DNA of 40,606 nt from positions 1 through 40,606 of the forward strand of contig LSCG01000006.1 in NCBI GenBank assembly GCA_001577055.1. Reading direction: 5' to 3'. The DNA comes from Fidelibacterota bacterium TCS56 (GTDB lineage: Bacteria; Fidelibacterota; Marinisomatia; Marinisomatales; TCS56). Made by a program: the position numbers and the translations under genes. The notes beneath the pieces were generated by a model. It had not been told where the DNA came from, searched no databases, and was given only the letters and a program-made list of their open reading frames with translations. Numbering within the stretch: the stretch's first letter is position 1; every line of letters begins with the position of its first letter. This document shows positions 1-37,831 of this stretch, piece by piece.

Positions 1-1539
1 CGGCCGGGTCCCATGGAGAACATCGACAGTTTCATCAAGCGCAAACACGGCAAGAAAAAGATCGAATACGTGCATGAGGCGCTGGAACCGATCCTGAAAG
101 AAACCTACGGTATCATCGTTTACCAGGAGCAGGTGATGCAGATCGCCCACGAAATCGGCGGCATGAGCCTGGCCGAAGCGGACAATCTGCGCCGGGCCAT
201 GGGTAAGAAGATCGCCGCGCTGATGAAAGAACTGGGGGGTAAATTCGTGGAAGGGGCGGTAGCCAAGGGTACCCCTAAGAAAACAGCCCGGAAGATTTAT
301 GATTTAATCGAGAAATTCGCCCAGTATGGCTTCAATAAAAGTCATTCCACCGCCTACGCCTATATCGCCTACCAGACCGCCTGGCTCAAGACCCACTACC
401 CGGCGGCTTTCATGAGCGCCAATCTCACCAGTGAGATGTCCAATATCGAACGGGTTGTGATCCTGATCAACGAATGCCGCAAGCTGGAAATTGAAGTTAC
501 TCATCCTGATATTAATGTATCGGACGTCAATTTCCACCCGGTGGATGAGAAAACGATTTCATTCGGACTGAACGCCATCAAAAATGTGGGCACCAAGGCC
601 CTGGAAAACATCGTGGCGGTGCGGACGGACAAGGGACAATTTAAGAGTTTATTCGACCTGTGCCTGCGGGTGGACTCCCGCACGGTAAACCGTAAAGTGC
701 TGGAAAGCCTGATCATGGCCGGCGCTTTGGATGAGCTGGAAGGCACCCGAGCCCAGCAATTCAACCAAATCGAGCAGGCCCTGAAATACTGCCAGAACTC
801 CCAGGCCGACACCAACCGGGCCCAGGTGGATATGTTCGGCAATGTCATCGGTGAACAATCGGTGGTGCAGATTCCACCCCTGCCCGACGTGGAGGACTGG
901 AGCCAAACCCAGGCTTTGGCTAACGAAAAAGCGGTGCTGGGCATGTACCTGTCCGGTCACCCGCTGTTGAAATACGCCGATGACCTGGAGCAATTTTCCA
1001 CCTTTGATTTCAGCGAAGACGCGGAGCAGATCGAGCTGGAGAAAGTGCGGGTAGGTGGCACGATCCAGGAGCTGCGCCAGCACCAGGACCGCAAAGGCAA
1101 GACGATGGCCTTCTTCAAATTGGAATGTCTGGGTGGATCCGCCGATATTACCGTTTTTTCCGATACCTACGAGAAATATCGCACCGACCTTCATAATGAC
1201 AACCTGGTATTTATTCAGGGTAAACCATCCACCGACTCTGATTTCAGTGACCTGAAACTTTTGGGTGATGAAGTGGTACCGATTGCCAAAGTCCGCGATT
1301 ACTATTCCAAGCGCATTAACCTGCGGATTAATCCTGATGATTTTTCAAAAGAACAGGTGGATGATTTATTCGAGCTGACCAGTCAGTACGGAGGCAAATG
1401 CGGATTAATGTTCCACGTTCCCAACGGCCGCGGGAACGGCAAGCGAATTATCAGCCACAAACTAAAGGTTTCGTCTCATCGCGATTTCCTGAAAAAACTG
1501 GCCGAGATGGTGGGTAAGAAGAATGTCTGGGTGGAATAA
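1..1539 (+). CDS. dnaE: DNA polymerase III alpha subunit, C-terminal part (5' end outside window)
   Basis: This is the replicative DNA polymerase catalytic subunit, cut by the window edge. The frame is open from base 1 and starts RPGPM, the conserved RPGP motif of C-family polymerases, so the ATG at 13 is internal and not the start. The segment continues with YGIIVYQEQVMQIA, a signature of the fingers region, then LRRAMGKK, and FNKSHSTAYAYIAYQTAWLK, also highly conserved. After that come the tandem helix-hairpin-helix region (around residues 190-250) and an OB-fold (VRVGGTIQELRQ) near residue 345. The layout is that of DnaE1, not PolC. The last 80 residues are a poorly conserved tail. About 510 residues are present out of a usual 1100-1200. 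The gene is followed by a 200-base repeat-rich gap before dtd. Confidence 0.97.
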   Translation, partial: RPGPMENIDSFIKRKHGKKKIEYVHEALEPILKETYGIIVYQEQVMQIAHEIGGMSLAEADNLRRAMGKKIAALMKELGGKFVEGAVAKGTPKKTARKIYDLIEKFAQYGFNKSHSTAYAYIAYQTAWLKTHYPAAFMSANLTSEMSNIERVVILINECRKLEIEVTHPDINVSDVNFHPVDEKTISFGLNAIKNVGTKALENIVAVRTDKGQFKSLFDLCLRVDSRTVNRKVLESLIMAGALDELEGTRAQQFNQIEQALKYCQNSQADTNRAQVDMFGNVIGEQSVVQIPPLPDVEDWSQTQALANEKAVLGMYLSGHPLLKYADDLEQFSTFDFSEDAEQIELEKVRVGGTIQELRQHQDRKGKTMAFFKLECLGGSADITVFSDTYEKYRTDLHNDNLVFIQGKPSTDSDFSDLKLLGDEVVPIAKVRDYYSKRINLRINPDDFSKEQVDDLFELTSQYGGKCGLMFHVPNGRGNGKRIISHKLKVSSHRDFLKKLAEMVGKKNVWVE

Positions 1540-33060: not shown

Positions 33061-33609
33061 TTAAAGCCGGGCCAGGACGCCTTGATTCACTTCTTTGGCC
33101 TTTTCCGCTCCAAACAGGGCCGTGACCAATTCGAAAGCGAATTCCATGGCGGCGCCGGCGGCACAACCGGTGATAATATTGGCGTCACGGTGTACCCGGC
33201 TGGCTTGGTATTGGCCATCCTTCAACCTGGCGCTCCAGGCGGGATGTATTGTAACCTGGCGCCCCGGCAGAACACCGGCCTGGTCCAGCACTGAAGGTGC
33301 GGCACAAACGGCTGCCGTTAACTTTCCCTGGCGGTTGTGTTGTGCCAGTAATTCCCGCAGGCGCTCATCGGCAGCCAGATTGGGGGTTCCCGGCACGCCG
33401 CCGGGGAGTACGACCATATCCCAGTTTTTACCGGTTTCCTCGGCGATAACACTGTCGGCCACCAGATGTATTCCGTGGGAACCGGTAACGTTACGTTTTT
33501 CCAGTCCGGCGGTAACCACTTCGGCTCCAGCCCGACGCAGGATATCAATTATCGTAACGGCTTCTATTTCTTCAAAGCCCGGTGCCAGTGGTATCAGAAC
33601 TTTTTTCAT
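33061..33609 (-). CDS. DJ-1/PfpI family protein
   Basis: The 182-residue protein belongs to the DJ-1/YajL group. It starts KVLIPLAPGFEEIEAVT with the conserved glutamate E16, and has the nucleophilic cysteine C102 in AAVCAAPSVL and the VVLPGGVPG loop. The AAGAAMEFAFELVTALFG segment near the C-terminus is typical of DJ-1 proteins. Roles reported for this group include protection against oxidative or glyoxal damage and chaperone activity. The start lies 38 bases inside the end of the small membrane-protein gene. Confidence 0.93.
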   Translation of the reverse strand: MKKVLIPLAPGFEEIEAVTIIDILRRAGAEVVTAGLEKRNVTGSHGIHLVADSVIAEETGKNWDMVVLPGGVPGTPNLAADERLRELLAQHNRQGKLTAAVCAAPSVLDQAGVLPGRQVTIHPAWSARLKDGQYQASRVHRDANIITGCAAGAAMEFAFELVTALFGAEKAKEVNQGVLARL

Positions 33610-33883
33610 TGTTTACTCGCAGATGTAATAATTGCAGTCTTTTATGGGTGCGCCGGATGAAAAATTTGAGTTCCCGCACACCGTGGGAACCGGACAGGAA
33701 AAATCCGGCAATCAACATCACCCAGGATGTAAGATAGCAGCCGCTGCCAACCGCGATCCAGAAATAGGCTTTGGTTTTTAGAAACAGAACACCACCGATC
33801 CACAGACCGCCCAAACCGAGCGGATAGTTCAGTATCAGCAGGACCAGGCCTGTCAGGTAGCGGATGCGCCTGATGCGATTCAA
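33572..33883 (-). CDS. Small membrane protein, unknown
   Basis: The 103-residue protein starts with TTG (MNRIRRIRYLTGLVLLILNYPLG). A positive N-terminus is followed by three hydrophobic stretches: LTGLVLLILNYPLGLGGLW, AYFWIAVGSGCYLTSWVML and MLIAGFFLSGS. After these comes a basic tail (RELKFFIRRTHKRLQLLHL). It lies 20 bases after the large SPOR-protein gene and overlaps the DJ-1 gene by 38 bases. I do not recognise a family. Its position suggests co-expression with the SPOR protein. Confidence 0.6.
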   Translation of the reverse strand: MNRIRRIRYLTGLVLLILNYPLGLGGLWIGGVLFLKTKAYFWIAVGSGCYLTSWVMLIAGFFLSGSHGVRELKFFIRRTHKRLQLLHLRVNNEKSSDTTGTGL

Positions 33884-33903: not shown

Positions 33904-36900
33904 TTAACGGCTTAAATCAGACAGGCGAACGACCTGCGGTTTATCCCCATTACGCTCAAACCAGGGCGGTACTTCTTTCAGGGCTTTTTTGGCCGCCCGC
34001 TTGGAATTGAAATCCCCCAGGCAGACGGTATAACAGTCCTGATCATCTAATGTTCTGGGCAGCAGGAAAAATGACGATGAACGATTGACGGCGCTGTAAG
34101 CATCGGCCACGGATATGTCCTGGCAGGCTACCATCAGGCGAATGGTATAGCCGTTGGCGCCGGCCTTTTTCTGAATTTCCCATAAGCCGGCAGCCTGAAC
34201 ATAGTGCCCAAGGTTTAATAATTCAGCAGGGCTGTAATCGGGTTGCAATTCCTCCACAGCAGTTTCGTCAACTTCCAGGCTGGCAATATCCACATAAGTT
34301 TCGGTGGCGGTTTGTGTTTCCGGTTCCAGGGCGGCGGTAGCCGTGTCCATCTCAATCCAGTCATCGGTGACGGTTCCACTGGTTAATACCACTACCGTAT
34401 CTGCCGGTGCTGTTGCACCTGGCTGTTCAAGCGCACCGGCGGGGTCAGATTCCGCATCTGCTGCGGACTGATCATCCGCCGGCAGTGTCAACATGGCGGA
34501 GATAAAGGCCTCTTCGGCCACGGAAACATCATTGGCGTCGGTGGTGTCAACAGCGCGATCTGTGGTTGTATCCGCTGAATTTTCCTGCACCGGGGACGGC
34601 GTACTCTTCGCCGGTTTGGAATCTGCAACCTGAATGACTGCTTCCTCCTGCGGCCGGGCAGCCTCCGGCTCAGGCTTTGGAGGGCGGACCGGCGTTACGG
34701 TAGGCCGGGTTATTTTAATCCGCCCGAAACTGCTGATCAGCGGTTTAGCCTGATTATCATAAAACCAGGCAGGTATTTCATCAAACCACTGCCGGGCATC
34801 TTCCCGGCTGGCGAAATCGCCCCAACAGATGGAATAGCAGGCACGATTGTTTAACGCCCGGGGCAAAACAAAGAAATCAGCCGGTTTATCCAGGTTGCGA
34901 TAGGCATTGAGAATAGTGGACTCTTCACAACCGAATAGCATCAGAATAGTATAATTGTCCGGTTTAGCCTTCTTTTCCCGGCCCCAGATTTCGGCGGCCT
35001 TATGATAATCACCGCGCTCGAAATGATCCCAGGCCTGGCGATTAACACTGAGGTTGCGCAAGGGCAGGGTTTTAACCTGCGGTCGAGGCTTGGGCGGAGC
35101 CGGAACCGGTTTTTCTTCCACCGGAGCGACCACCTCTTCCTCCACCGTTGGTTCGGGCTCCGGGGTAATTTCCTCGGCAGCCGTATCGATTACGGCCACG
35201 GCCTCTTCGATCACCGCCTCTGCCGTTGGTGTCGGCGGCGGTTGATCAACCACCACTTCATCGGTGGTAACCGGTGTGTCTTCTTCGGAAGGCCAAAAGA
35301 TATAGACAGCCGCCAGACCCACGATCACCGCAGCGGTGATGGCCAGCCATTTGGTCAACCTGCCGGGGACCGGTTGCTGTTCGACATCCTCATCAACCAG
35401 ACTCAATTCAGGAGCTGAATCGTCTGGCTTTTGTTCAGTGGCTTCTTCAGCTTCGTCCGCCGCTGCAGCCGGTGCAGTTTCAGACTCAGACCGGCCCATC
35501 CGGCGTTCCAGGGCTTTGATGCGCTGCTGCTCATAATCATCCTCGACCGGTTCGGCGGTCGGAGCGGTTTCTTTCGGCTCCGGTTCCGGTTCGGGCTCAG
35601 GGACAGGTGTAGGTTCAGGTCGATCCTCCTGGGCTGCGACCGATGGTTCTTTCGTGTCCGGGGGCGGTTCGTGAGCCTGGGGTTCTTCTTGGTGAACTTC
35701 CGGCTCCTGTGGAGTAGCCTCGTCTTCCAGCGGTTCTCCCAGGGCTTCCGCCACCTCTTGTTTTTTTGCCGCCAGTTTCTCCGGGGGCACATCCAGACCG
35801 GACAGGGTCTCGAGCAACGCAGCCGCCCGTTTAGGAAATCCCTGGCTGAGATATAGATCCACCAGGTAAAAGCCCGGTACTGCAGGATCAACACCGGCTG
35901 ACGCCGGTGTTTTATCAGCCGCCGGTTCACTGGCTGCTTCCTGGGCGGCCTTTTCTTCGGCTTCCAGCTTTTTCAATTCCGCCAGCGACAGACGGTAATT
36001 GCTGATCACCTTTTCATCCACGGTAAAATCGCTGAAATCAGAATCAAGTAAATAGGAGGAGTCAGAGGGAATATCTTTATCCTTATCCGGCTTCTGTCCT
36101 TTGGCTGGTTGGGGCTCAGGCGGGCTTTCCTCCTGTTCGGAATCCGGCGCTTTATCCGCTTCAGGCGCGGGGGTCGGTGACGGTTCGGAAGGTAACTCGT
36201 CGCCGCTTTTATCGATATTAAAATCTTTCAGTTCAGCTTCAGGAGATTTATCCCCTTCCTCCGGTTGTTCCGGCTGGGAACCGTCTTCCTGGCTGAAACC
36301 CAGGGTTGACATTAAATCATCATTATTTTTGTTTTCCACAGTGGCAGGTCTTTCTTCCGGCTCTGACGCTGGTAAATCCTGAGCCTCCGGTGCGGATGGT
36401 TCGGGAAGCAAGGTCAGGTCGGTATCGGTTGCACCGGAAAGAATTCCGATGACGGTATTAATCAGGGTTGCCTCGGCGATTTCGCCGAAGAAGATGGAAT
36501 GGGCCCTCAGCCCCCCCGGGGCACTGTCACGGTTGATTGAACCGGTCAGTGAGTGTAATGCTCCGCGTTCGATGGCAGCCCGCACATCAGTTTCATCCGG
36601 CTGGCTGTCAATATTAATGATATGACCACCGGATGATCCTTCACGCAGATGCGGTAAAAGCGTCTGGCACCAGTTTAAGGTAGCGCTGAAAGAAGCGCTG
36701 ATACGATCCTGCCAGGCTACCGAATCGGCTGGTTCATCAGCAGTGGCGCTTATTCCGTTATTGAGATTAATCAGGCCGTCAATCCGTCCCACTTTTGCCA
36801 GTATTTGCTGCCATGCTTCGGTGACATTCTGGTTTTTCTCAAACTTGCCGGCAAGACGGAAATGCCCGGGAGAAACTTCGTTCAGAGTGGTTGTGTCCCC

Positions 36901-37011
36901 TAAGCGGGCATCAACAACCCGGGCTCCCGAACGCACCAATTCCGCAACAATATTATCGGCAGTGGTCCCGCCGAAACCGGTCAGCAAATAGGTATATTTA
37001 TCTAATTTCAT
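33904..37011 (-). CDS. Pseudo-SDR / transmembrane / double SPOR-like protein
   Basis: The 1035-residue protein appears to join three parts. Residues 1-200 look like a short-chain dehydrogenase: TGFGGTTA at 11-18 in place of TGxxxGxG, LNNG at 83-86, Ser136 kept in IINIDS, but Ala145 and Arg149 where Tyr and Lys should be, so it is very probably not an enzyme. Residues 205-550 are acidic and proline-rich with a TPR-like stretch (FYLVDLYLSQGFPKRAAALL). A single membrane helix follows (WLAITAAVIVGLAAVYIFW, about 554-573). Two homologous modules lie at about 655-765 and 920-1035. Each holds Y..AA..W....K, YTI.LM..C, FF.LPR.L, CY..C.GDF and P.WF...KP, resembling SPOR domains that bind septal peptidoglycan. 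The N-terminus should be cytoplasmic and the SPOR pair periplasmic. No fusion of this kind is familiar to me. Confidence 0.75.
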   Translation of the reverse strand: MKLDKYTYLLTGFGGTTADNIVAELVRSGARVVDARLGDTTTLNEVSPGHFRLAGKFEKNQNVTEAWQQILAKVGRIDGLINLNNGISATADEPADSVAWQDRISASFSATLNWCQTLLPHLREGSSGGHIINIDSQPDETDVRAAIERGALHSLTGSINRDSAPGGLRAHSIFFGEIAEATLINTVIGILSGATDTDLTLLPEPSAPEAQDLPASEPEERPATVENKNNDDLMSTLGFSQEDGSQPEQPEEGDKSPEAELKDFNIDKSGDELPSEPSPTPAPEADKAPDSEQEESPPEPQPAKGQKPDKDKDIPSDSSYLLDSDFSDFTVDEKVISNYRLSLAELKKLEAEEKAAQEAASEPAADKTPASAGVDPAVPGFYLVDLYLSQGFPKRAAALLETLSGLDVPPEKLAAKKQEVAEALGEPLEDEATPQEPEVHQEEPQAHEPPPDTKEPSVAAQEDRPEPTPVPEPEPEPEPKETAPTAEPVEDDYEQQRIKALERRMGRSESETAPAAAADEAEEATEQKPDDSAPELSLVDEDVEQQPVPGRLTKWLAITAAVIVGLAAVYIFWPSEEDTPVTTDEVVVDQPPPTPTAEAVIEEAVAVIDTAAEEITPEPEPTVEEEVVAPVEEKPVPAPPKPRPQVKTLPLRNLSVNRQAWDHFERGDYHKAAEIWGREKKAKPDNYTILMLFGCEESTILNAYRNLDKPADFFVLPRALNNRACYSICWGDFASREDARQWFDEIPAWFYDNQAKPLISSFGRIKITRPTVTPVRPPKPEPEAARPQEEAVIQVADSKPAKSTPSPVQENSADTTTDRAVDTTDANDVSVAEEAFISAMLTLPADDQSAADAESDPAGALEQPGATAPADTVVVLTSGTVTDDWIEMDTATAALEPETQTATETYVDIASLEVDETAVEELQPDYSPAELLNLGHYVQAAGLWEIQKKAGANGYTIRLMVACQDISVADAYSAVNRSSSFFLLPRTLDDQDCYTVCLGDFNSKRAAKKALKEVPPWFERNGDKPQVVRLSDLSR

Positions 37012-37123: not shown

Positions 37124-37831
37124 TTATTTTTCCCTCAGTAAAGCCAGTAATTTATCACGGGTCAGGTCCCGCAACTCCTCGACCGAAATATAGCGGTAAT
37201 CATCAGCGGTGAGCGGTTGGCCGAATTGTACACGGATGATACCCGGTCGAATGCGCCAGTCATTTTTAGGTTTAGCTCTCAGCGAATTAAAAAAGGCCAG
37301 CGGGACAATGGTGGCGCCGGTGTTTTTAGTCACGTGGAAAGGCCCTTTCTTGAACGGCAGCAATTCGCCGGTAATTGTACGAGTCCCTTCCGGTGAAATA
37401 AGGAACGACACGCCATCGCGGATGGCTGCTTCAGCCAGGACGAGACTGGCGATGGCACTTTTCAAATCACTGCGAATAATGGGAGTGATACCATATTTGC
37501 GCAGCATGGCTCCCCACAGGGGATATGAAAACTGGTAATCGGCACCAACCGCGGTAACGTAATGGCGGACGACGGCGCCAATGATAAAAGGATCAAACAT
37601 GGTGGCATGGTTGAACATGAAGATATACGGCCCGGCGTCATCATTAAAATCGTTGCGGTTAACAACCAGTATTTGTCCACTGCACAGCAGGATGAACCGG
37701 CATAACATCCGTACCACATAATGTAAATGGTGTCGGGGGATCACGGTAATAGCCACAATGAAGATCATCCCCGACAGGATAAATCCCGTCAGGGCCAGCG
37801 GCCAGATCAACAGGGCAATAATGGTTTTCAT
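37124..37831 (-). CDS. plsC: 1-acyl-sn-glycerol-3-phosphate acyltransferase
   Basis: This enzyme acylates lysophosphatidic acid to phosphatidic acid at the inner membrane. The 235-residue protein has a hydrophobic N-terminus (ALTGFILSGMIFIVAITVI), the catalytic H75-x4-D80 in FNHATMFDP, and SPEGTRT around 146-152. Motif IV is in IVPLAFFNS. The paralogue PlsB is far larger, so PlsC fits. It shows that ordinary ester phospholipids are made, which matters when judging the archaeal-type UbiA enzyme. It overlaps the YprB-like gene by 4 bases (ATGA). Confidence 0.93.
   Translation of the reverse strand: MKTIIALLIWPLALTGFILSGMIFIVAITVIPRHHLHYVVRMLCRFILLCSGQILVVNRNDFNDDAGPYIFMFNHATMFDPFIIGAVVRHYVTAVGADYQFSYPLWGAMLRKYGITPIIRSDLKSAIASLVLAEAAIRDGVSFLISPEGTRTITGELLPFKKGPFHVTKNTGATIVPLAFFNSLRAKPKNDWRIRPGIIRVQFGQPLTADDYRYISVEELRDLTRDKLLALLREK

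Follow-up and report, generated by a model that had tools for sequence, protein, structure and literature searches.

A putatively vestigial short-chain dehydrogenase domain on a DamX-like, predicted bitopic SPOR protein in Fidelibacterota

Introduction

Why would a short-chain dehydrogenase (SDR) that has lost its catalytic residues stand at the head of a predicted membrane protein ending in two SPOR modules? The question is raised by an uninterrupted open reading frame of 1035 codons (37011-33904, minus strand) in the window, that is, the whole 40,606-nucleotide stretch of DNA analysed, from Fidelibacterota bacterium TCS56 (G000). The initial annotation placed a pseudo-enzyme in the cytoplasm and peptidoglycan-binding modules in the periplasm, and proposed a possible sensor or scaffold at the division site. 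Nothing relevant on an SDR-SPOR fusion was found in the literature, and nothing specific on cell division in Neomarinimicrobiota, a field that appears little studied.

Results

The protein consists of an SDR-like domain, a long acidic linker, a membrane helix and two SPOR modules (Table 1). The single helix expected from the initial annotation corresponds to one hydrophobicity peak and is flanked on both sides by acidic, proline-rich segments. By the positive-inside rule, the side carrying R551 and K554 would be inside; the proposed layout, with the N terminus in the cytoplasm and the SPOR modules in the periplasm, is probable as a predicted topology. A helical segment of the first linker is conserved in three related proteins; no Pfam TPR match was obtained for its residues, and thus the name "TPR-like" is a judgment by eye. 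The spacing from the Val224 GTG codon to the DDLMSTLG motif equals that from the probable GTG start in an SDR-less homologue of the sister genus (G002), and translation from an internal start at Val224 could possibly already produce a protein without the SDR in the window genome. The linker of this homologue (L032/L011) contains an ExxRIxALxxR-like motif about four times, and that of the window protein contains it once (YEQQRIKALERR, residue 493). Between the fusion gene and the DJ-1 gene lies a gene for a small basic membrane protein with no Pfam match (window 33572-33883, minus strand), which is conserved in G001 and G002 and absent from G012.

Table 1. Features of the fusion gene and its upstream neighbour, in window coordinates
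Feature	Position	Strand	Remarks
Whole gene: SDR-like domain, acidic linker, membrane helix, two SPOR modules	33904..37011	-	1035 aa
Putatively vestigial SDR domain, residues 1-205	36397..37011	-	Asn -> Ser107, Tyr deleted, Lys -> Arg149, C-terminal lid lost, Ser136 kept
GTG codon, Val224	36340..36342	-	Possible internal start
DDLMSTLG, residues 231-238	36298..36321	-	Short motif common to the window protein and the SDR-less G002 protein
Acidic proline-rich linker, predicted cytoplasmic, residues 206-551	35359..36396	-	
TPR-like helical segment, residues 376-428	35728..35886	-	Conserved in G002, G012 and G013, by eye
Single membrane helix, residues ~555-573	35293..35349	-	One hydrophobicity peak
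Acidic proline-rich linker, predicted periplasmic, residues 574-653	35053..35292	-	
SPOR module copy 1 with leading helical hairpin, residues 654-768	34708..35052	-	Cys695, Cys725, Cys729
Acidic inter-module linker, residues 769-922	34246..34707	-	
SPOR module copy 2, residues 923-1035	33907..34245	-	Cys963, Cys993, Cys997; Pfam SPOR above cut-off
plsC-type acyltransferase gene	37124..37831	-	Conserved upstream neighbour anchoring synteny

The C-terminal module was present in 5 of the 245 genomes of the phylum, namely the window genome, two others of the same family (G001 and G002) and two from other families of the order (G012 and G013). The SDR and the module were fused in three of the 245, a very rare fusion, as the initial annotation had suggested. 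A pattern scan with three modules, the one search that extended beyond the phylum, returned only two contigs, both from 'Candidatus Neomarinimicrobiota'. Other SPOR proteins, mostly three, were present in all 61 close relatives; those of the window genome comprise one with a long helical-repeat-like N-terminal part, one lipoprotein-like and one short protein. The window protein is thus an extra SPOR protein.

Next, the identity of the N-terminal domain was examined. Residues 9-175 matched Pfam adh_short above the Pfam cut-off (E=6.6e-12), and adh_short_C2 matched as well (E=1.6e-6). An AlphaFold model of residues 1-207 matched SDRs in the PDB (probability 1.00, E about 1e-7, TM about 0.6), with a mean confidence of 67 that was low around the active site and beyond residue 137, and fair to high over residues 20-80, leaving a partly confident Rossmann-like half. 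Both Pfam and the model therefore recovered an SDR fold within residues 1-205, in agreement with the initial assignment of the first 200 residues or so.

Residue losses were judged by alignment to 29 relatives. The catalytic Lys is replaced by Arg, as had been noted, and the catalytic Asn by Ser, and the catalytic Ser is kept. The catalytic Tyr falls within a four-residue deletion, so that the "Ala145" previously given in its place reflects an ungapped register only. The lid segment P..IDTPxNRxAMPDADFxxW, present in the intact relatives, is lost. The degraded glycine motif, also cited initially, is weak evidence: TGFGGTTAD keeps both family-invariant glycines (G12 and G15), and although the later Gly of the TGxxx(A/G)xG loop is replaced in TGFGGTTA, catalytically complete relatives show similar loops (TGANGTVAS and TGAKGATAE). 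The window SDR keeps 18 of 43 near-invariant positions, whereas the figure is 40 to 43 of 43 to 45 in five comparison proteins, both intact fusions among them. At core hydrophobic positions it keeps 23 of 30 against a background of about 40%, and the others 28 to 30 of 29 to 31. On the plsC tree, the tip of the window SDR measured 2.8 substitutions per site and that of its plsC neighbour 0.7, and the SDR/plsC path ratio was 1.97 for the window versus 0.66 to 1.18 in 16 others, the window's genus being one genome in the data set. With plsC as the yardstick, the rate of the window SDR is about double that of the other SDRs. These losses and this rate are marks of relaxed selection, and the domain is presumably inactive as an enzyme. 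Because 23 of the 30 core positions are kept and residues 20-80 are modeled fairly well, a residual constraint on folding is possible.

The lid segment of the intact relatives matched only dihydropteridine reductases in the PDB, apart from one unrelated surface protein, and the whole domain was nearest to FabG-type and related enzymes. At the family level, no SDR of the plsC-linked family was found elsewhere in G000, G001 or G002. A weak match in G002 (E 0.003) was rejected as a replacement, as this lone SDR is of an ordinary kind and lies in another context.

The history of the domain was read from the gene order, which in this taxonomic order is conserved as a MutY or exonuclease gene followed by plsC, SDR and DJ-1. 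The plsC-type acyltransferase gene of this locus was found in 104 of 130 genomes, in many of them followed by DJ-1 and peptidase genes. In some genomes (G006, G034, G064, G079, G045, G017, G004, G021, G044 and G019), a lone SDR of about 225 aa stands directly behind plsC, and these lone SDRs carry the complete Asn, Ser, Tyr and Lys set. At the same place in G012 (a 948-codon frame) and G013 stands a catalytically intact SDR fused to an acidic linker, which is followed by a helix and a single SPOR module. The three fused SDRs cluster in the tree with a support of 77. The G013 fusion is split just before the membrane helix by a run of eleven A (L014, G013:C17 ~1140-1149, minus strand), where one frame ends in KKKK and a stop and the next continues as KKKVSPLRLFSLIL; this run reflects an indel error or else a slippage site, which would yield both a soluble SDR and a membrane-bound form.

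In the sister genus, one G002 contig carries plsC and directly behind it, without an SDR, an open reading frame that starts after a stop in the linker and reaches the contig end. The remainder of the linker, followed by the helix and two SPOR modules, lies on a second G002 contig, which overlaps the first by 17 nt and keeps its reading frame; the two contigs would thus adjoin. In G001, a CsgG-like domain behind a signal peptide takes the place of the SDR and helix before the SPOR module (L012, G001:C237 11388-12416, minus strand); this genome has about ten copies of the CsgG-like domain. The genes downstream of the G001 module are the same as in the window, and the plsC and SDR of the locus were not found in this genome. 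The arrangement is possibly a domain swap or an assembly joint. A CsgG-like paralogue in the window genome (L083, G000:C109:7146-7667) is broken by one in-frame TAG.

Altogether, one site holds a graded series: a lone intact SDR, a fused intact SDR in two families, a fused decayed SDR in the window, and an SDR-less form in the window's family, the last seen in one genome (G002) and all of the genomes being draft MAGs. The series indicates that evolution kept the membrane and SPOR part and not the dead enzyme.

In addition, the duplicated C-terminal modules were compared with SPOR domains. Copy 2 matched Pfam SPOR at residues 968-1029 (21.6 bits against a cut-off of 21). Copy 1 alone gave no Pfam SPOR match by sequence; its AlphaFold model, built from seven modules (pLDDT 92, pTM 0.84), had the DamX SPOR domain (2lfv) as its top PDB match (probability 1.00, E 1.3e-3), and its matches also list the SPOR domains of CwlC, RlpA and DedD. 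Hence one copy by Pfam and the other by its model agree with the SPOR type named in the initial annotation. Against PDB sequences, the module profile matched DamX alone (E=0.024). A Pfam NIPSNAP match to copy 1 (E 0.015-0.16) was rejected as chance, since the copy 1 model matches SPOR.

The two copies are about 31% identical. The three cysteines per copy described earlier are invariant across all seven modules found, which also carry a leading helical hairpin with an invariant WxxxK. A highly conserved SPOR side chain that touches glycan is Gln270 in RlpA and Gln351 in DamX, and Trp416 of DamX also matters in SPOR complexes (PMC6895207). In the profile alignment, the window protein has Leu (copy 1) and Arg (copy 2) at the position of this Gln, which is replaced in all seven modules, by Leu, Ile or Val in copy 1 and the single-copy forms and by Arg or Lys in copy 2. 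In contrast, the three other SPOR proteins of the window genome keep the Gln (VQVGAF, IQVSAK and VQVLMT). The modules are SPOR domains by fold, and probably by descent, in which the canonical Gln contact is not kept. Because the Gln is absent from all seven, wall binding is not assured; of the peptidoglycan-binding modules proposed initially, the SPOR type stands and the binding is uncertain. SPOR-glycan contacts are mostly made by the backbone and a basic patch (PMC6895207), by which the modules could possibly bind glycan. The invariant cysteines, which would lie in the periplasm under the predicted topology, may form a disulfide. Any septal location of the protein would be hypothetical. No division genes adjoin the fusion gene, whose neighbors are plsC, the MutY or exonuclease gene and DJ-1.

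Discussion

The explanation that we favor, and consider fairly likely as a whole, is a vestigial SDR on a DamX-like bitopic inner-membrane SPOR protein whose long linkers would be disordered. An SDR gene behind plsC, FabG-like and with a lid motif as in quinonoid dihydropteridine reductase, would have been extended at its C-terminal end by a linker, a helix and SPOR. The SPOR module would have been duplicated in the window's family, where the SDR would have lost its function and be eroding, with the sister genus having lost the SDR altogether. The SDR remnant would be a leftover of the fusion event. The part that does the work would most likely be the SPOR modules together with the helix and the TPR-like segment; through them, the inner membrane would be tethered to the wall or to envelope proteins of the periplasm. 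At a single gene position, the locus offers a natural series of graded steps, in which an envelope protein would have taken up an enzyme and later shed it, with the envelope part surviving. It would illustrate how a pseudo-enzyme domain can be transient baggage, not a sensor, and it adds a SPOR subtype without the usual glycan-contact Gln.

The SDR remnant might instead be kept as a cytoplasmic pseudo-enzyme that binds a cofactor or partner and, via the SPOR modules, reports to or scaffolds the division site. Its 205 codons without a stop or frameshift would fit such a role, but an N-terminal position keeps the frame open even if the domain is useless. The hydrophobic core (23 of 30 positions), the partly confident Rossmann-like half of the model and the two invariant glycines of the nucleotide loop also speak for it, whereas the fast evolution of the domain and its absence from G002 and G001 speak against it, and we regard this role as unlikely. 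The SDR-less sister genus and the intact fused SDRs of two other families argue that the dead domain is a decay stage of one lineage and not, as initially suggested, a conserved sensor or scaffold. In G012 and G013, the intact fused SDR may be an active membrane-tethered reductase beside PlsC with a lipid or pterin substrate, the SPOR module mainly placing the enzyme, and the window lineage would have given up the enzyme. This proposal, which is compatible with the vestigial SDR that we favor for the window, draws on the full catalytic set of both proteins, the conserved plsC linkage and the similarity to FabG-type and dihydropteridine-reductase-type enzymes. We consider it doubtful, as it leaves unexplained why the helix and SPOR part stayed, and even duplicated, after enzyme loss, and in most of the genomes where the lone SDR occurs it functions untethered.

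The modules could also have the SPOR fold and no longer bind denuded glycan, binding protein or sensing redox through the three cysteines instead. The replacement of Gln in seven of seven modules, while it is retained in the three other SPOR proteins of the window genome, and the invariance of the cysteines speak for this possibility, which we hold to be less likely than not. On the other side, the Gln may not be essential, since SPOR-glycan contacts are largely made by the backbone and a basic patch, and the FtsN SPOR domain also has a disulfide, which correlates with binding (PMC6895207). An extended form of these proposals, which we hold to be quite improbable, is that the G012 and G013 proteins are active tethered enzymes of the dihydropteridine reductase type, placed by a SPOR-fold module in which a Cys- or protein-based signal replaces glycan recognition, so coupling reductive or lipid metabolism to the envelope; the window protein would then be such a module being freed from its enzyme. 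Finally, unrelated genes could have been joined in a MAG by assembly or prediction, all sources being draft MAGs. This artifact was rejected as hardly credible because the same fusion recurs, with the same gene order, in separate assemblies from three families.

Among known systems, the lone plsC-linked SDRs of Neomarinimicrobiota (G006, G034, G064, G079 and others) share the syntenic position and a homologous domain with the window protein and differ in being lone, about 225 aa long and catalytically complete. Quinonoid dihydropteridine reductase (8b5t and 1dhr) shares the lid IDTPxNRxAMPxADFxxW with the putative ancestral SDR; in contrast, the similarity of the whole domain is higher to FabG-type SDRs, and the window protein has lost the lid. 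With the PF05036 proteins FtsN, DedD, RlpA and CwlC, the window modules share the fold and, in copy 2, also the Pfam profile, but they are without the conserved glycan-contact Gln and carry the WxxxK hairpin and the Cys triad.

The closest likeness is to DamX of E. coli, in which one helix separates a folded cytoplasmic domain from a long linker and a SPOR domain, and which stimulates PBP1B in a manner that depends on its membrane region (PMC7642682). The window protein shows the same order of a cytoplasmic domain, single helix, long linker and C-terminal SPOR, its topology being predicted, and the DamX SPOR domain (2lfv) is both the best sequence-profile match and the best fold match of its modules. 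As evidence of orthology, the profile match is weak (E=0.024), and the cytoplasmic domain and gene context differ. Unlike DamX, the window protein has an SDR remnant as its cytoplasmic domain, two SPOR modules and three invariant cysteines, and its modules do not keep Gln351 and Trp416 of DamX.
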